In this document: positions 28,756 through 35,521 of the stretch, one piece after another
Position numbering within the stretch: position 1 is the first letter of the stretch
Layout of the letters: each line of letters opens with the position of its first letter
NCBI GenBank assembly: GCA_947446025.1
Contig: CANFEY010000003.1
Location: 1 to 64,000 of the forward strand
Source of the DNA: Bryobacterales bacterium
GTDB lineage: Bacteria; Acidobacteriota; Terriglobia; Bryobacterales; Bryobacteraceae
Length of the DNA stretch: 64,000 nucleotides
Direction of reading: 5' to 3'
The notes under the pieces: model-generated
What the model was told of the DNA's origin: nothing
What the model saw: the letters and a program-made list of their open reading frames with translations, nothing else
Database searches by the model: none
Position numbers and translations under genes: made by a program

Positions 28756-29282
28756 ATGCGGTCTATGAATGACACGCCTCGCGTCCGCCCGCTGAACTCC
28801 GGGATCTGCCTGCACTCACGGAAATCGTAAATTACTACGTCCTCCACTCCCACGCCACCTTTGATATCAGGCCCTTCACGGCTGACCAGCGTTTGCCGTG
28901 GTTCCAAGAACACTCCGCTGGGAAGCGCCATCAGATGCTGGTCGCGGAGGACCCCGCCGTGGGCGTTACCGGTTTTGCGTGTTCTGGGAGACACAGGGCA
29001 AAAGAGGCTTACAACACCACGGTGGAAACCAGCGTCTATTGCCGAAAGGACTGGGCCGGGCCCGGTTTGGGCAGGCTGCTCTATTCGTCGCTGTTCGAGG
29101 CGCTAGCGGGGGAAGACATCCATCGCATGGTAGCGGGCATCGCCCAACCGAACCAGGCATCGAACGCGCTCCCCCAGCGGCTGGGCTTCCATGTCATAGG
29201 CACGTACACGCAGGTGGGCCGGAAGTTCGGCAAGTATTGGGACGTGCTGTGGATGGAGCGGCCGCAGCAGCCCCGCTCGTAA
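28756..29282 (+). pseudogene. GNAT acetyltransferase (phosphinothricin-type), frameshifted near its N-terminus
   Basis: The body of the protein is a GNAT of the phosphinothricin/methionine-sulfone acetyltransferase type (TSVYCRKDWAGPGLGRLLYSSLFEAL, NALPQRLGFHVIGTY). The expected N-terminus is split across two frames: MRSMNDTPRVRP from the ATG at 28756, then AELRDLPALTEIVNYYVLHS in the next frame. One missing base near 28788-28793 explains the shift. Without that base the product would be about 175 residues. A shorter product could start at TTG 28893, but it would lose the first strand and helix. The normal role would be acetylation of a small amine; here it is probably inactive. Confidence 0.7.
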
Positions 29283-29299
29283 TGCAACCGGGAGCATTC

Positions 29300-29311: not shown

Positions 29312-31219
29312 ATGGCAAATGACGGACTCACGCGGCGGCAGCTAGGTGGACTTGCAGCGGGTGCAGCACTGCTGGGCCCTTTGCAATTGCGGGCGCAGGG
29401 TGGCGATGCGGTGCTCGATATTGCCGAGTGGTCGTATTACTGGTACGGCGTGGAGAAGACGTTGATGGCTCGTGGGACTGCGGTCAACGGGCGGCAGATC
29501 TATGTGGAGCACTGGATTCCGCGGCAGGTGCGGCATCCGTATCCGGTCGTGCTGGTGCATGGGGGCAACCGGCAGGCGAGTGACTGGATGACGACTCCGG
29601 ACGGACGGCGCGGGTGGGTCTCGCTGCTGCTGGAGCAGGGCTACAAGGTCTACATTGTGGACCGGCCCGGGCAAGGGCGGGTTCCGTATCATCCGTGGCT
29701 GCATGGGAATTATGCGGCGCAGGCTCCCACGTTTGAAGCGGCGGCGCGCGAGGTTGCGAGTTCGCAATGGCCGGGGACGGGGGATGCTGCGAGTCCTGAG
29801 GTGGCGCAGTTTGTTGCGGCGTCGTGCCAGGCGATGCCGCGCAATGCGGTCACGCAAGCGACCTGGACATCGCGGGGCGTGATGTTACTGGAGGATATCG
29901 GTCCAGCGATCTTTGTGACGCATGGCGATGGGGCGGCGTTCGCCTACGGGACGGCGGGTGCGCGACCGGAGCTGGTGAAGGGGATCGTCGCGGTGTCGCA
30001 ACCGGCGAACACGCAGCCTGCGGGGTTGCGCGTGCCAGTGCTGGCTTTCGTGACGCCTGCCGGCCATGGCGCGTATCCGCACCTGGAGAAGAACAACCGC
30101 GAGGTGCTGCGGCCGATTCTAGAATGGATGTCCGCGACGGCAGAGGCGGGTGTTCTGGCGAAGGTTGCTGATGGCATCGACCCGGCGCGCAATGTGGAAT
30201 CGACGGGGTTCAAGCTGGCTTCGCAAGGGCACTTCTGGGTGGGCGTGCAGCGCAAGACGATGCCATACGGGACCATTCCGATGGGGCAGATGTTTGTGCA
30301 GTACATCAAGCCGGCGGAGAAGAAGCATCCGTTGCCGATTGTGATGGTGCATGGAGGCGGCGGGCAAGGCTGCCACATGATGGGGATCGGTAGGCGTCCC
30401 GGGTGGGTGCATTTCTTCGTGCAGGCGGGCTACGACGTTTACTGGGTGGACCGGCCGAGTTATGGGCGGTCAACGTATCACCCGGACGCGCTGGGTCCGA
30501 GCCATTTGCCGATTGTTCCTGCGTATGAAGGCCTCATCATCGCCAACAATGTGTTCAACACCGCGCAGTGGCCCGGTCCCGGCGGCATGGACGATCCCAT
30601 GATCGGCCAGTTCATGGCCAACGAGCGCGGCAACATCAGCGACGAAGCCCTGCACAGCAGTCTGGTCTGGCCCGGCGGCGCGGAACTGCTCGACAAGATC
30701 GGTCCCAGCATTGTGTTCGGCCACGCCTTCGGCGGCTTCTTCGGCTGGGGCGTCGCGGACCGCAGACCCGACTTGGTGCGCGGCATCGTCTGCATGGAGA
30801 TCAATAGCAACCCGTTCGTGGGCCAGTTCCGATGGGGGTTGACGGCGGCTCCGATGACGTATGATCCACCGGTGAATGATCCGGCTGAGTTCCGGTTGGT
30901 GGACGTAACGCCTCCGCCGGATATGCCGCGGCCGGTAGTGTCGCCGTATCGAATGCAGGCAGAGCCGGCCCGCAAGTGGAAGAACCTGATCGGCAAGAAG
31001 GTGGCGTGGGTGACCAGCGAATACGGTGCCGGCGGATCACCCGTGGCGCAGGTCGCGTTCCTGAAGCAGGTCGGCTTGGACACCACGATGCTGCGCCTGC
31101 GCGATTTCGGGATCCACGGCAACGGGAATCTGATGCTGATGGAGAAGAACAACCACGAAGTTTACCGCGTGGTGCAGGATTGGCTGGACCAGAACGTACC
31201 GGAGAACCGCAGGTTGTAG
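29312..31219 (+). CDS. exported tandem alpha/beta-hydrolase protein lacking both nucleophile serines
   Basis: The 635-residue protein starts with a Tat-like signal (LTRRQLGGLAAGAALLGPL). It contains two related alpha/beta-hydrolase domains: residues about 40-315 (VVLVHGGNRQASDW, VYIVDRPGQGRVPYHP) and about 320-632 (IVMVHGGGGQGCHMM, VYWVDRPSYGRSTYHPD). At the nucleophile elbow, where active relatives have T-H-S-x-G-G, domain 1 reads THGDGAA (Gly205) and domain 2 reads GHAFGG (Ala472). Both serines are therefore missing, while the oxyanion-side HGG motifs and a C-terminal His (FGIHGNG) remain. It may be a binding protein or use another chemistry. An upstream in-frame extension overlapping the GNAT gene was rejected in favour of the signal-peptide start. 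Confidence 0.82.
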   Translation: MANDGLTRRQLGGLAAGAALLGPLQLRAQGGDAVLDIAEWSYYWYGVEKTLMARGTAVNGRQIYVEHWIPRQVRHPYPVVLVHGGNRQASDWMTTPDGRRGWVSLLLEQGYKVYIVDRPGQGRVPYHPWLHGNYAAQAPTFEAAAREVASSQWPGTGDAASPEVAQFVAASCQAMPRNAVTQATWTSRGVMLLEDIGPAIFVTHGDGAAFAYGTAGARPELVKGIVAVSQPANTQPAGLRVPVLAFVTPAGHGAYPHLEKNNREVLRPILEWMSATAEAGVLAKVADGIDPARNVESTGFKLASQGHFWVGVQRKTMPYGTIPMGQMFVQYIKPAEKKHPLPIVMVHGGGGQGCHMMGIGRRPGWVHFFVQAGYDVYWVDRPSYGRSTYHPDALGPSHLPIVPAYEGLIIANNVFNTAQWPGPGGMDDPMIGQFMANERGNISDEALHSSLVWPGGAELLDKIGPSIVFGHAFGGFFGWGVADRRPDLVRGIVCMEINSNPFVGQFRWGLTAAPMTYDPPVNDPAEFRLVDVTPPPDMPRPVVSPYRMQAEPARKWKNLIGKKVAWVTSEYGAGGSPVAQVAFLKQVGLDTTMLRLRDFGIHGNGNLMLMEKNNHEVYRVVQDWLDQNVPENRRL

Positions 31220-33237: not shown

Positions 33238-34530
33238 CTAGCGGCGGTCTGTGCTATTCGGTAGCGCGTCGGTTCCGGCCACCGAATACGTCACGGCGGC
33301 GTTGCGGGTCTTTTGGAACTCGGGCACGGTCTGGCCGCGCATGGCGGCGTAGATGTCGATATTGCCGACGCCGACGACGGCACCGAGCTTCTCGAGCATG
33401 AAGAAGATGACTCCGTAGTGGATCATGCCGCGCCAGTTCAGAGTGCGGACCAGTTCCTTCTCTTCTTCGGTGAGGCCGGAGGTGGCGAATAGCGCTTCCT
33501 TGTCGGCGCGGAACTTGGCGCGCCATTCAGGATTCGTCAGGCTGTGTAGAAACTTGTTGAGCCGGTACGCTTTCACGCTGCGGTCGAGCGTGTAGGGATA
33601 CGTGCCCGCCAGCTTTTCGATACCTGCAAGCTGGTGGTTGATGCGATCCGTGTATGCGGAGTCGGGCTTGGCCTGCTCGCCGTCGTTTTCGTAGATAGCG
33701 GTGGCGATGGCGGTCATGCTGGGCAGGTAGTAGCTTTGGTGAAGCTTCTTCACCTTGGGCGAAAGCGCGCCGCGCATCACCAGCCACATGATGATCTCAG
33801 AGCCTTCCATGCCGCCCTTTTCGGCGTATTCGGCGATGGTGACCTGGGTGAGTTTTTCGGGATCTTTTTCGAGCAGGTCGAGGAACTCCATGTCCCATTC
33901 GGTGTTATTGAAGCCGCAGCGTTCGCCGTGGACCTGATGCGAAAGGCCGCCTGTGGCGACCAGCACGACGCCGAGGTCTTCGGGGTAGCTTTCAATGGCT
34001 TTGCGCAGGCTCTGGCCTAGTTTGTAGCAGCGCTTGGCGGAGGGTATGGGGAATTCAAGCACGCCGATTTGCAGCGGGACGATGGCTCCGGGCCAGTCGT
34101 TCTTCTGCGGGCCTTGATCGTGCGGCCAGAGGATGGAGAGCGGCGAGAAGCAGCCGTGGTCGAGTTTCTTGTCCTGGAAATAGGAGAGGTCAAATTCATC
34201 GGCGACCAGGCCGGAGGCGATGTGGTGCGCAAGTTTTGCATGGCCGCGAACGCCGGGCAGATCACGCGGACCTCCGCCTTCGTCCGCAACTTCGTAACGG
34301 TCACCGATGCCGAGGGCGAATTGCGAGTAGTGATCGAAGAAGAAGCTGGTGACATGGTCGTTGAAAATCATGAGGAGCACGTCGGGCTTCTTCGCGGCGA
34401 GCCAGGCCTGGACGGGTTTGTAGGCCTCGAAGATGGGGGCCCAGACGGGATCCGCCTCTTTGTGGGCATCGAGGGCGAAACCAATGGTGGGTGTGTGTGA
34501 GCTGGCGACGGCGCCAAGAATTCTTGCCAT
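33238..34530 (-). CDS. gallate/protocatechuate-type extradiol dioxygenase, fused LigB-LigA form
   Basis: The 430-residue protein fuses the two subunits of class III extradiol dioxygenases. Residues 1-285 are the catalytic LigB-like part: His12 (SSHTP), His59 (NDH) and Glu242 fit the Fe(II) ligands, and His124 and His198 (GGLSHQ) fit the acid-base residues. Residues about 315-420 are LigA-like (AYRLNKFLHSLTNPEWRA, LNWRGMIHYGVIFFMLE). This layout is that of gallate dioxygenases (DesB/GalA), which open the ring of gallate to 4-oxalomesaconate; a protocatechuate or related substrate is also possible. It is preceded by two small membrane protein genes and by its own possible leaderless promoter. 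Confidence 0.87.
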   Translation of the reverse strand: MARILGAVASSHTPTIGFALDAHKEADPVWAPIFEAYKPVQAWLAAKKPDVLLMIFNDHVTSFFFDHYSQFALGIGDRYEVADEGGGPRDLPGVRGHAKLAHHIASGLVADEFDLSYFQDKKLDHGCFSPLSILWPHDQGPQKNDWPGAIVPLQIGVLEFPIPSAKRCYKLGQSLRKAIESYPEDLGVVLVATGGLSHQVHGERCGFNNTEWDMEFLDLLEKDPEKLTQVTIAEYAEKGGMEGSEIIMWLVMRGALSPKVKKLHQSYYLPSMTAIATAIYENDGEQAKPDSAYTDRINHQLAGIEKLAGTYPYTLDRSVKAYRLNKFLHSLTNPEWRAKFRADKEALFATSGLTEEEKELVRTLNWRGMIHYGVIFFMLEKLGAVVGVGNIDIYAAMRGQTVPEFQKTRNAAVTYSVAGTDALPNSTDRR

Positions 34531-34545: not shown

Positions 34546-35013
34546 TTAAACGAATCCGATGGCCCGGCCAGCGGCTCCGGTGAGGAACCACAGGAATTGG
34601 GAGAGAAATCCTGCGATGGGGGCCCAGGCTGGCGGTTGTTCGCTGGCAACGGCCCGCTTGTGCAAGGTGTAGTGAGACACCAGCGCGGCGGTTAGGAAGT
34701 ACATCTTGGGTCCGAAGGCGGAGTTATCGTAGAGCTTACCGCCTTCCGAGGCGAAGAGCATGGCACCGGAAACCAGGATGACCAGGATGCCCCAGTTGAT
34801 GTAGGTGTGGAGTTCGCGGTACATGCGCGCGGCACCGATGCCACCCATCTTGAGGCCCATGAGGCGAAGATCGATCAGGAAGAGCGCACCGAGGAAAACC
34901 GCGAGCGCCAAGATGTGGAATGTCTCAATCAGCGGGAAGGGCCAGGTGCCGCCTTGGATCCATTGACCAACCGCAGTGTTCTCAGCCCATTTGTAGATCG
35001 GATAAGTGTCCAT
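34546..35013 (-). CDS. small polytopic membrane protein, DUF6644-like (copy 2)
   Basis: The 155-residue protein has about four hydrophobic helices (FPLIETFHILALAVFLGALFLIDLRLMG, YINWGILVILVSGAMLFASE, MYFLTAALVSHYTLHKRA, GFLSQFLWFLTGAAGRAIGF). It is a paralogue of the gene just upstream: both share an E..H.L.L....G...L.D.RL.G pattern and a later GxxxFxSE/CSE turn. The DUF6644 label is from memory. Conserved His residues in helices could bind haem or metal (inference). AAGGA precedes the ATG at 35013. Role unknown. Confidence 0.75.
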   Translation of the reverse strand: MDTYPIYKWAENTAVGQWIQGGTWPFPLIETFHILALAVFLGALFLIDLRLMGLKMGGIGAARMYRELHTYINWGILVILVSGAMLFASEGGKLYDNSAFGPKMYFLTAALVSHYTLHKRAVASEQPPAWAPIAGFLSQFLWFLTGAAGRAIGFV

Positions 35014-35023
35014 GCTTGGTTCC

Positions 35024-35521
35024 TTAGAGGTTGTAGGCGGTCCAGCGGCCCGCGAAGATGACGCCGGTCCAGAAGAGGATGGAGAGAATGCCAGCCCGTC
35101 GCGCTTCAGGTGGCGGAACGGGGAGCAAGTCCCAGGTTGCCCCGGTGGACTGGGTCTTAAAGTGGAAGTACATCGCGTTGGCACCGGCGACGAGGAGTAG
35201 AAGAATCTTGATGCGGAACCAGCCGCTGTTGTAGCAGCGCACGGCTTCGGAACAGAACAACAAGACACCAGTGACGAACATCACCGTGGCTCCGCCGAGC
35301 GAGTAGGGGACGAAGGTCTTGGCGATTTTGCTGACCGGAGTGTCTTTCCAGGCGATGCCGGCTAGCCGGAAGTCCAGCATGAGCACGGGGCCCATGATGA
35401 AGGCGAGGCCGAGCAGGTGCAGTCCTTCGATGATGGGAAACATCAGTTGCGATTCGCGCAGAGCAGTGGCCCAGCCCATGTCTTGCAGGCGCTGGCAGTA
35501 TTCGAGCAGTATGGCGGACAT
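35024..35521 (-). CDS. small polytopic membrane protein, DUF6644-like (copy 1)
   Basis: The 165-residue protein has about four membrane helices (MFPIIEGLHLLGLAFIMGPVLMLDFRLAG, FVPYSLGGATVMFVTGVLLFCSE, FRIKILLLLVAGANAMYFHF, ILSILFWTGVIFAGRW). The pattern EGLHLLGLAF....LDFRLAG matches the downstream gene, so the two arose by duplication and may form a heteromer. The spacing to the next start is 10 bases. Close relatives in Solibacter-type genomes often lie in such pairs (from memory). Function unknown; a redox or transport partner of the dioxygenase is a guess. Confidence 0.75.
   Translation of the reverse strand: MSAILLEYCQRLQDMGWATALRESQLMFPIIEGLHLLGLAFIMGPVLMLDFRLAGIAWKDTPVSKIAKTFVPYSLGGATVMFVTGVLLFCSEAVRCYNSGWFRIKILLLLVAGANAMYFHFKTQSTGATWDLLPVPPPEARRAGILSILFWTGVIFAGRWTAYNL

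Follow-up and report, generated by a model that had tools for sequence, protein, structure and literature searches.

The locus and its gene product

The window, by which we mean the whole 64,000-nucleotide stretch of DNA analysed, carries on its plus strand a gene encoding two related alpha/beta hydrolase domains behind a putative export signal. The coordinates and the two-domain build given in a preliminary description of this DNA were borne out, as 29312-31219 (+) translates into 635 residues and both halves of the protein match Pfam Abhydrolase models. The features of the gene are given below, where counts refer to rows of a domain alignment with 22 rows for 21 genomes, G007 being split over two contigs and the second piece of G690 being left out of the domain table; SulE and the active tandem relatives are introduced in the following sections.

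29312..31219, plus strand: coding sequence of the serine-less tandem alpha/beta hydrolase, 635 residues and a stop codon (translation, PDB sequence matches, purifying selection)
29312..29398, plus strand: Tat-type signal, residues 1-29, assigned by motif, with a putative cleavage site
29411..30157, plus strand: N-terminal alpha/beta hydrolase domain (N-domain), shortened, about residues 34-282 (domain alignments)
29924..29926, plus strand: G205, nucleophile site of the N-domain; Gly in 17, Ala in 2, Thr in 1 and Ser in 1 of 21
29927..29929, plus strand: D206, beside the lost nucleophile of the N-domain; Asp in 21/21, against Ala in 17 or Met in 3 of 20 in the active sister set
30071..30073, plus strand: A254, catalytic-His site of the N-domain; no His in 21/21 (gap in 9, other residues in 12)
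30200..31201, plus strand: C-terminal alpha/beta hydrolase domain (C-domain), residues 297-630 (sequence matches, C-domain model, fold match)
30350..30358, plus strand: HGG oxyanion-loop motif, residues 347-349, conserved in the C-domain
30725..30727, plus strand: A472, nucleophile site of the C-domain; Ala in 21/21 rows reaching the site, aligned with SulE position 209
30728..30730, plus strand: F473; aromatic in 21/21 (Phe 19, Trp 1, and Tyr 1, the last as the final residue before a contig end in its row), against Ala in 19/19 active C-domains
30797..30799, plus strand: E496, the triad acid that is kept; Glu in 20/20 rows, SulE counterpart Glu232
31127..31129, plus strand: N606, catalytic-His site of the C-domain; Asn in 19/19 rows

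Upstream of the gene lies a GNAT acetyltransferase frame, and downstream, on the same strand, a TIG-domain frame followed by a PIN domain; the opposite strand carries, further downstream, a LigAB-type dioxygenase (2 kb away) and two DUF6644 proteins. The GNAT stop codon (29280-29282) is 29 bases ahead of the annotated ATG at 29312, and it is overlapped by a second in-frame ATG at 29282, 30 bases 5' of the annotated start (TAATG, window 29280-29284). This overlap makes a different start and translational coupling with the GNAT gene possible, and the true start of the tandem hydrolase may be the ATG at 29282.

The protein begins with the twin-arginine motif LTRRQLGGLAAGAALL...LRAQ. An RR motif, read as a motif rather than called by a signal-peptide predictor, precedes the first domain in all 20 clade rows with a complete N-terminus, a count that excludes G241, whose frame is cut before the motif, and G007b, a C-terminal piece. 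Judged by this twin-arginine motif, the window protein is predicted to be exported by the Tat route.

Replacement of catalytic residues in both domains

The preliminary description had stated that both nucleophile serines are replaced, by G205 and A472, in an otherwise intact protein. The replacements were confirmed: neither elbow contains Ser, the N-domain elbow reading THGDGAA (residues 203-209) and that of the C-domain HAFGG (471-475), and the register of A472 is fixed by SulE position 209, which aligns with it and is Ser in the wild type and Ala in the deposited mutants. The catalytic His is also gone from both domains (Ala254 and Asn606), and the protein is not otherwise intact, as the N-domain measures 259 residues versus 359-421 in active tandem relatives. 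This shortening is uneven, with N-domain lengths of up to 372 (G362) in the clade.

The position of the C-domain His site follows from 1qlw His298 and SulE His333, both of which align with N606; H602 (in GIHGN) was considered as the catalytic His and rejected on the basis of these alignments and of its own variability. The triad sites of the window protein read Ala/Glu/Asn in the C-domain, where only the acid Glu496 is kept, and Gly/Ser/Ala in the N-domain, where none of the three catalytic residues is kept and the acid site is occupied by Ser229 (Glu in 13 of the 21 clade rows). When the two nucleophile-site replacements were followed through the orthologues, as had been suggested beforehand, Ala472 proved to be uniform, while Gly205 held in most rows and gave way to Ala, Thr or Ser in the remaining four.

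Relationship to Esterase 713 and SulE

Each of the two domains carries an HGG loop, a VDRPxxGR motif and an IGP stretch ahead of the nucleophile elbow. By sequence match to the PDB, the nearest solved structures, above all others, are 1qlw, 4q34 and SulE, with 1qlw giving the best match (1.5e-18 by phmmer, 2.4e-29 by profile). A model of the whole protein had a mean pLDDT of 43.6 and was read only for the strand-turn-helix at the elbows. The model of the C-domain, for which an alignment with 14 rows and added N-domains was used as input, reached a mean pLDDT of 60.2 and a pTM of 0.66; since most of its cap scores below 50, it is good for a fold match, whereas its pocket is not readable. In a Foldseek search with this model, ranks 1-16 were all SulE, 4q34, 1qlw or 2wkw, and the VIA-align Z scores for these four spanned 21.3-22.8 (21.3-21.5 for SulE, 21.7 for 1qlw and 22.8 for 4q34), compared with 17.9 at most for other folds. 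The nucleophile site of the C-domain lies directly after a strand and before a helix in both models; that of the N-domain is likewise preceded by a strand and followed by a helix in the whole-protein model, poor as it is.

Both domains by sequence, and the C-domain also by the fold of its model, belong to the Esterase-713/SulE type, the assignment of the N-domain being by sequence only. As the Ser/Glu/His triad of this type is not complete in either domain, the window protein is a relative by descent and at most a candidate for a functional member. SulE (PDB 7y0l, 8gol and others) shares with it the domain family, the fold, the positions of nucleophile, acid and His and the retained acid Glu, but is a single-domain homodimer that has an intact triad and is active, whereas the window protein consists of two fused domains with the altered triads given above. 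Esterase 713 of Alcaligenes (1qlw, 2wkw) and the Parabacteroides esterase BDI_1566 (4q34) resemble the window protein in sequence and fold, but they have a single domain with His at the aligned site, and the elbow of 4q34 reads THS. The two-domain build recurs in active tandem paralogues (e.g. G018:C156 and G362:C93), several of which have RR motifs; these differ in their longer N-domain and in their complete triads.

Distribution of the serine-less clade

Overlapping sets of genomes were searched (101 relatives, 237 of the family, 396 of the phylum, 257 of the order, 162 of another order and 43 of another family), and the orthologue searches cover the stronger listed matches among those passing the E-value cut of each genome search. 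The serine-less tandem protein was found in 21 acidobacterial genomes, namely in 17 of 237 from its own family and in four (G362, G589, G685, G745) that belong to two further families of the phylum. The most distant members are G362 and G745, with 50% and 48% identity over the C-domain, respectively, and the rows of G238, G241 and G589 run off contig ends. In the tree, G685, a genome of another family with a contamination of 4%, falls among the own-family rows, which may reflect either transfer or a binning error.

According to the preliminary description, orthologues with Ser would indicate that this copy is just decayed. Such a case was not encountered in the 21 genomes, where Ser occurs just once, at the N-domain site of the G007 fragment, whose His site is occupied by Arg. 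The closest orthologue, 86-87% identical, is L032 (CALQCC020000003.1), from a record titled as a Bordetella parapertussis MAG; this title looks mislabelled.

Active sister set, tree and selection

In the same alignment, Ser, Glu and His are present in 39 of 39 domains reaching these sites in an active tandem sister set of 20 proteins, and in all six single-domain relatives. A tree was made by a quick method with the catalytic columns masked, leaving out the short C-domains of G007a and G690. In this tree the serine-less N-domains form one group and the serine-less C-domains another (SH-aLRT 98 and 98). Each adjoins its counterpart from the active set, with a fork support of 90 for the N-domains and 100 for the C-domains. 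The grouping of the active N-domains is supported by no more than 37, and the root fork by 76. The simplest reading of this topology would be that tandem duplication came first and that catalysis was then lost in both halves on one branch.

By NG86, dN/dS was 0.037-0.150 in 11 comparisons of the N-domain and 0.040-0.127 in 13 comparisons of the C-domain; seven pairs of the active paralogue gave 0.042-0.189. These ratios are rough, the pairs (13 of rows, 11 of genomes) having been picked by hand and many of them having a dS close to 1 or higher. All lie far below neutrality, and both domains are under purifying selection. An altered triad, conservation across the clade and purifying selection together make the protein a putative pseudoenzyme.

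The C-domain is more conserved than the N-domain. In the 17 own-family genomes, 164 of its 330 positions are invariant, including 16 of 20 in residues 346-365 and 8 of 10 in residues 471-480, and the corresponding figures are 66 of 191 for the core of the N-domain and 4 of 75 for the segment that follows this core. Relative to the active set, and skipping columns with fewer than 15 rows in either set, 22 positions of the C-domain are fixed in the clade only and 3 are relaxed, whereas the corresponding numbers for the N-domain are 6 and 13; keeping in mind that 18 of the 21 clade rows form one tight group in the tree, these counts do not represent independent events, and more distantly they are checked by G362, G745 and a truncated row, G589. 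At seven of these 22 C-domain positions the active set is fixed for another residue, and at 15 it varies; among the 22 are A472, N606 (His in the active set), E438 (Gln), R597 (Lys) and N614. Taken at the level of sequence, selection appears to tie the C-domain pocket to a new requirement, and the N-domain to be drifting, though not freely. As a separate observation, Asp206 is constant in all 21 rows although the N-domain is otherwise relaxed.

Proposed function and alternative explanations

A non-hydrolytic role, such as ligand binding or sensing, had been put forward in the preliminary description. Its non-hydrolytic part is well supported, as Ser and His are gone from both domains, the Ala and Asn of the C-domain are uniform and selection is purifying; engineered SulE provides an analogy that makes ligand binding or sensing plausible. 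In the comparison with SulE we take the ligand MM to be metsulfuron-methyl. The available text of the SulE study (PMC10356948) gives the triad as Ser209, Glu232 (the acid) and His333, and reports that the S209A/H333A mutant had no detectable activity toward MM, but bound it more stably than S209A did. The same text reports that this double mutant was crystallised with seven herbicides, one of them in an unproductive position and two with poor density, and that in SulE a beta-hairpin reaches from one subunit over the pocket of its partner (PMC10356948). The double mutant resembles the C-domain of the window protein, which has Asn in place of the His. Nature seems to have arrived here at a double replacement like the one (Ser and His out, Glu kept) that crystallographers made in their substrate-trapping SulE.

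With moderate confidence, and drawing on the sequence comparisons and on the SulE analogy, we propose that the serine-less proteins are an old, conserved clade of secreted pseudoenzymes that arose from a tandem-duplicated 713/SulE-type esterase, the pocket of the C-domain binding a ligand and the N-domain acting as a covalent half-dimer. The tandem protein would first be exported by the predicted Tat route, after which the C-domain pocket would bind, without cutting it, an ester-like or aromatic small molecule, comparable to what is seen with SulE S209A/H333A. The N-domain, as a covalently attached half-dimer, may cover this pocket in the manner of the SulE hairpin, and the biological use of the protein may be the scavenging, delivery or sensing of a soil compound. 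Such a tandem build could provide the hairpin cover within one chain, which would explain the retention of an eroding N-domain. The segments matching the SulE hairpin in the N- and C-domains are similarly conserved, so that the half-dimer idea fits these data but is not singled out by them. The quality of the whole-protein model does not allow the position of these segments to be read.

Use of an esterase active site for non-catalytic binding, aided by inserted aromatics, has been described for the carbohydrate esterase module CtCE2, which, as far as the available text goes, differs in keeping its Ser-His dyad and its activity (PMC2661963). The window protein resembles this module in having an aromatic residue beside the nucleophile site. 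A more specific formulation, which we put forward tentatively, is that of secreted acidobacterial receptors or non-hydrolytic enzymes built from two fused esterase domains, both dead, in which the C-domain pocket (Ala472, aromatic 473, Glu496 and Asn606, kept to about 48-50% identity) would have been reshaped so as to bind or convert one particular metabolite of the soil, the N-domain serving as an integral lid subunit. Overall, we rank a secreted binding protein as most likely and non-hydrolytic chemistry next, while a partner of the active paralogue is less likely because no active paralogue was found in the window's genome.

Gain of non-hydrolytic chemistry by the C-domain (as a lyase, dehydratase, isomerase or similar), relying on E496 together with polar residues specific to the clade, such as E438, N500, R595, R597 and N606, is in our view unlikely. 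It would account for the persistence of E496 in every row without its catalytic partners and for the presence of E438, R597 and N606 among the 22 positions fixed in the clade only. However, E496 may be purely structural, nothing points to a reaction, and the gene neighbourhood contains no conserved pathway partner.

Still less probable is a prozyme-like role, in which the serine-less protein would be an inactive partner regulating or completing an active tandem hydrolase of like build. An active double-Ser paralogue does accompany it in 8 of the 17 own-family carriers and in G362, G589 and G745, but among the best five candidates a genome no active tandem paralogue was found in the other 9 of the 17, weaker matches in G239-G242 lying outside this count. 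In the window's genome, which is 99.88% complete and for which all eight of eight candidates were scored, the only other match at E <= 0.001 covers 77 residues at 32%; in G014, with seven of seven candidates scored, there is one match. Conversely, G008 and G011 show the active protein without the serine-less one, again among the best five candidates a genome.

We give an equally slim chance to a scaffold or adhesion module that would act through its surface, its pocket being meaningless, as in neuroligins or NDRG proteins. NDRG proteins, neuroligins, gliotactin and thyroglobulin are animal proteins. NDRG1 and NDRG2 occur among the structural matches of the C-domain model, alongside many enzymes. 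Non-enzymatic alpha/beta hydrolases are already known (PMC7022630; PMC5943944), and in NDRG3 the triad of the fold is replaced by non-reactive residues according to the available part of PMC7022630. NDRG proteins, neuroligins and thyroglobulin belong to other subfamilies and are described as acting by protein contacts, whereas the window protein is bacterial, of Tat type and tandem, with conserved pocket motifs; the motifs that in relatives line the active site are among the most conserved stretches of the protein (the segments 346-365 and 471-480 noted above), which argues against a meaningless pocket. If the protein were only a scaffold, it would be a modest curiosity.

It is highly improbable that the N-domain is an enzyme with its nucleophile shifted to Asp206, as in the haloalkane dehalogenases and epoxide hydrolases, which use an Asp nucleophile together with a catalytic His. 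The constancy of this Asp in all 21 rows would suit such an enzyme, but the residue lies one position past the nucleophile site, the elbow has no insertion and the same spacing as in active relatives, His is absent from the catalytic site in 21 of 21 rows and part of the length of the domain is lost; D206 was therefore rejected as a shifted nucleophile. A decaying copy can be practically dismissed, given that the variable shortening of the N-domain, the split of G007 over two contigs and the three other rows running off contig ends are set against low dN/dS in both domains and C-domain replacements that all 21 genomes share, down to about 48-50% identity over this domain.

Returning to the secreted binding protein, the non-enzymatic alpha/beta hydrolase folds named in the available text of PMC7022630 and PMC5943944 are neuroligins, gliotactin, thyroglobulin and NDRG, next to which the window protein would stand as a bacterial, Tat-type, tandem example. 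In the open-licence literature, no title on an esterase-713-type or acidobacterial tandem pseudo-hydrolase was present among the matches listed, and the term 'esterase 713' was met, among the matches listed, in the SulE paper (PMC10356948) only. As the active sister set occurs in the same phylum, and in some genomes side by side with the serine-less protein, the route from enzyme to non-enzyme should be traceable; it may have led through loss of the triad in both domains, after which one pocket came under selection and the other was let go. Identification of the ligand could show which compounds these soil bacteria perceive or gather.

Gene neighbourhood

Comparison of the gene neighbourhoods revealed no neighbour common to the whole serine-less clade. 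Recurrent neighbours were DUF6152, DUF6644, MBL-fold and PQQ-type dehydrogenase proteins, of which the MBL and PQQ neighbours were named by eye and the DUF names assigned by Pfam for some members only. As evidence on function this recurrence was rejected: each of the four genomes tested has 50-73 copies of DUF6152, and 16 of DUF6644 are present in the window's genome, so that such company can be due to chance. No paper naming DUF6152 or DUF6644 was found in the open-licence literature.

The abundance of DUF6152 is an observation in its own right, since the 50-73 copies were seen in each of G000, G006, G013 and G020 and none in 14 of 14 control genomes, an unexplained expansion. The two DUF6644 proteins of the window are adjacent (34546-35521, minus strand), and the 16 DUF6644 matches of the genome are mostly neighbouring pairs. 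The dioxygenase at 33238-34530 (minus strand) is a fused LigB-LigA ring-opening enzyme, which suggests use of gallate- or protocatechuate-like aromatics, these substrates being putative. Finally, the active tandem paralogue occurs in a shared gene order in the related genomes G018, G013, G019 and G020 (G018:C156, G013:C2, G019:C32 and G020:C21), with neighbours that by eye are DUF6644-, DUF6152- and MBL-like.
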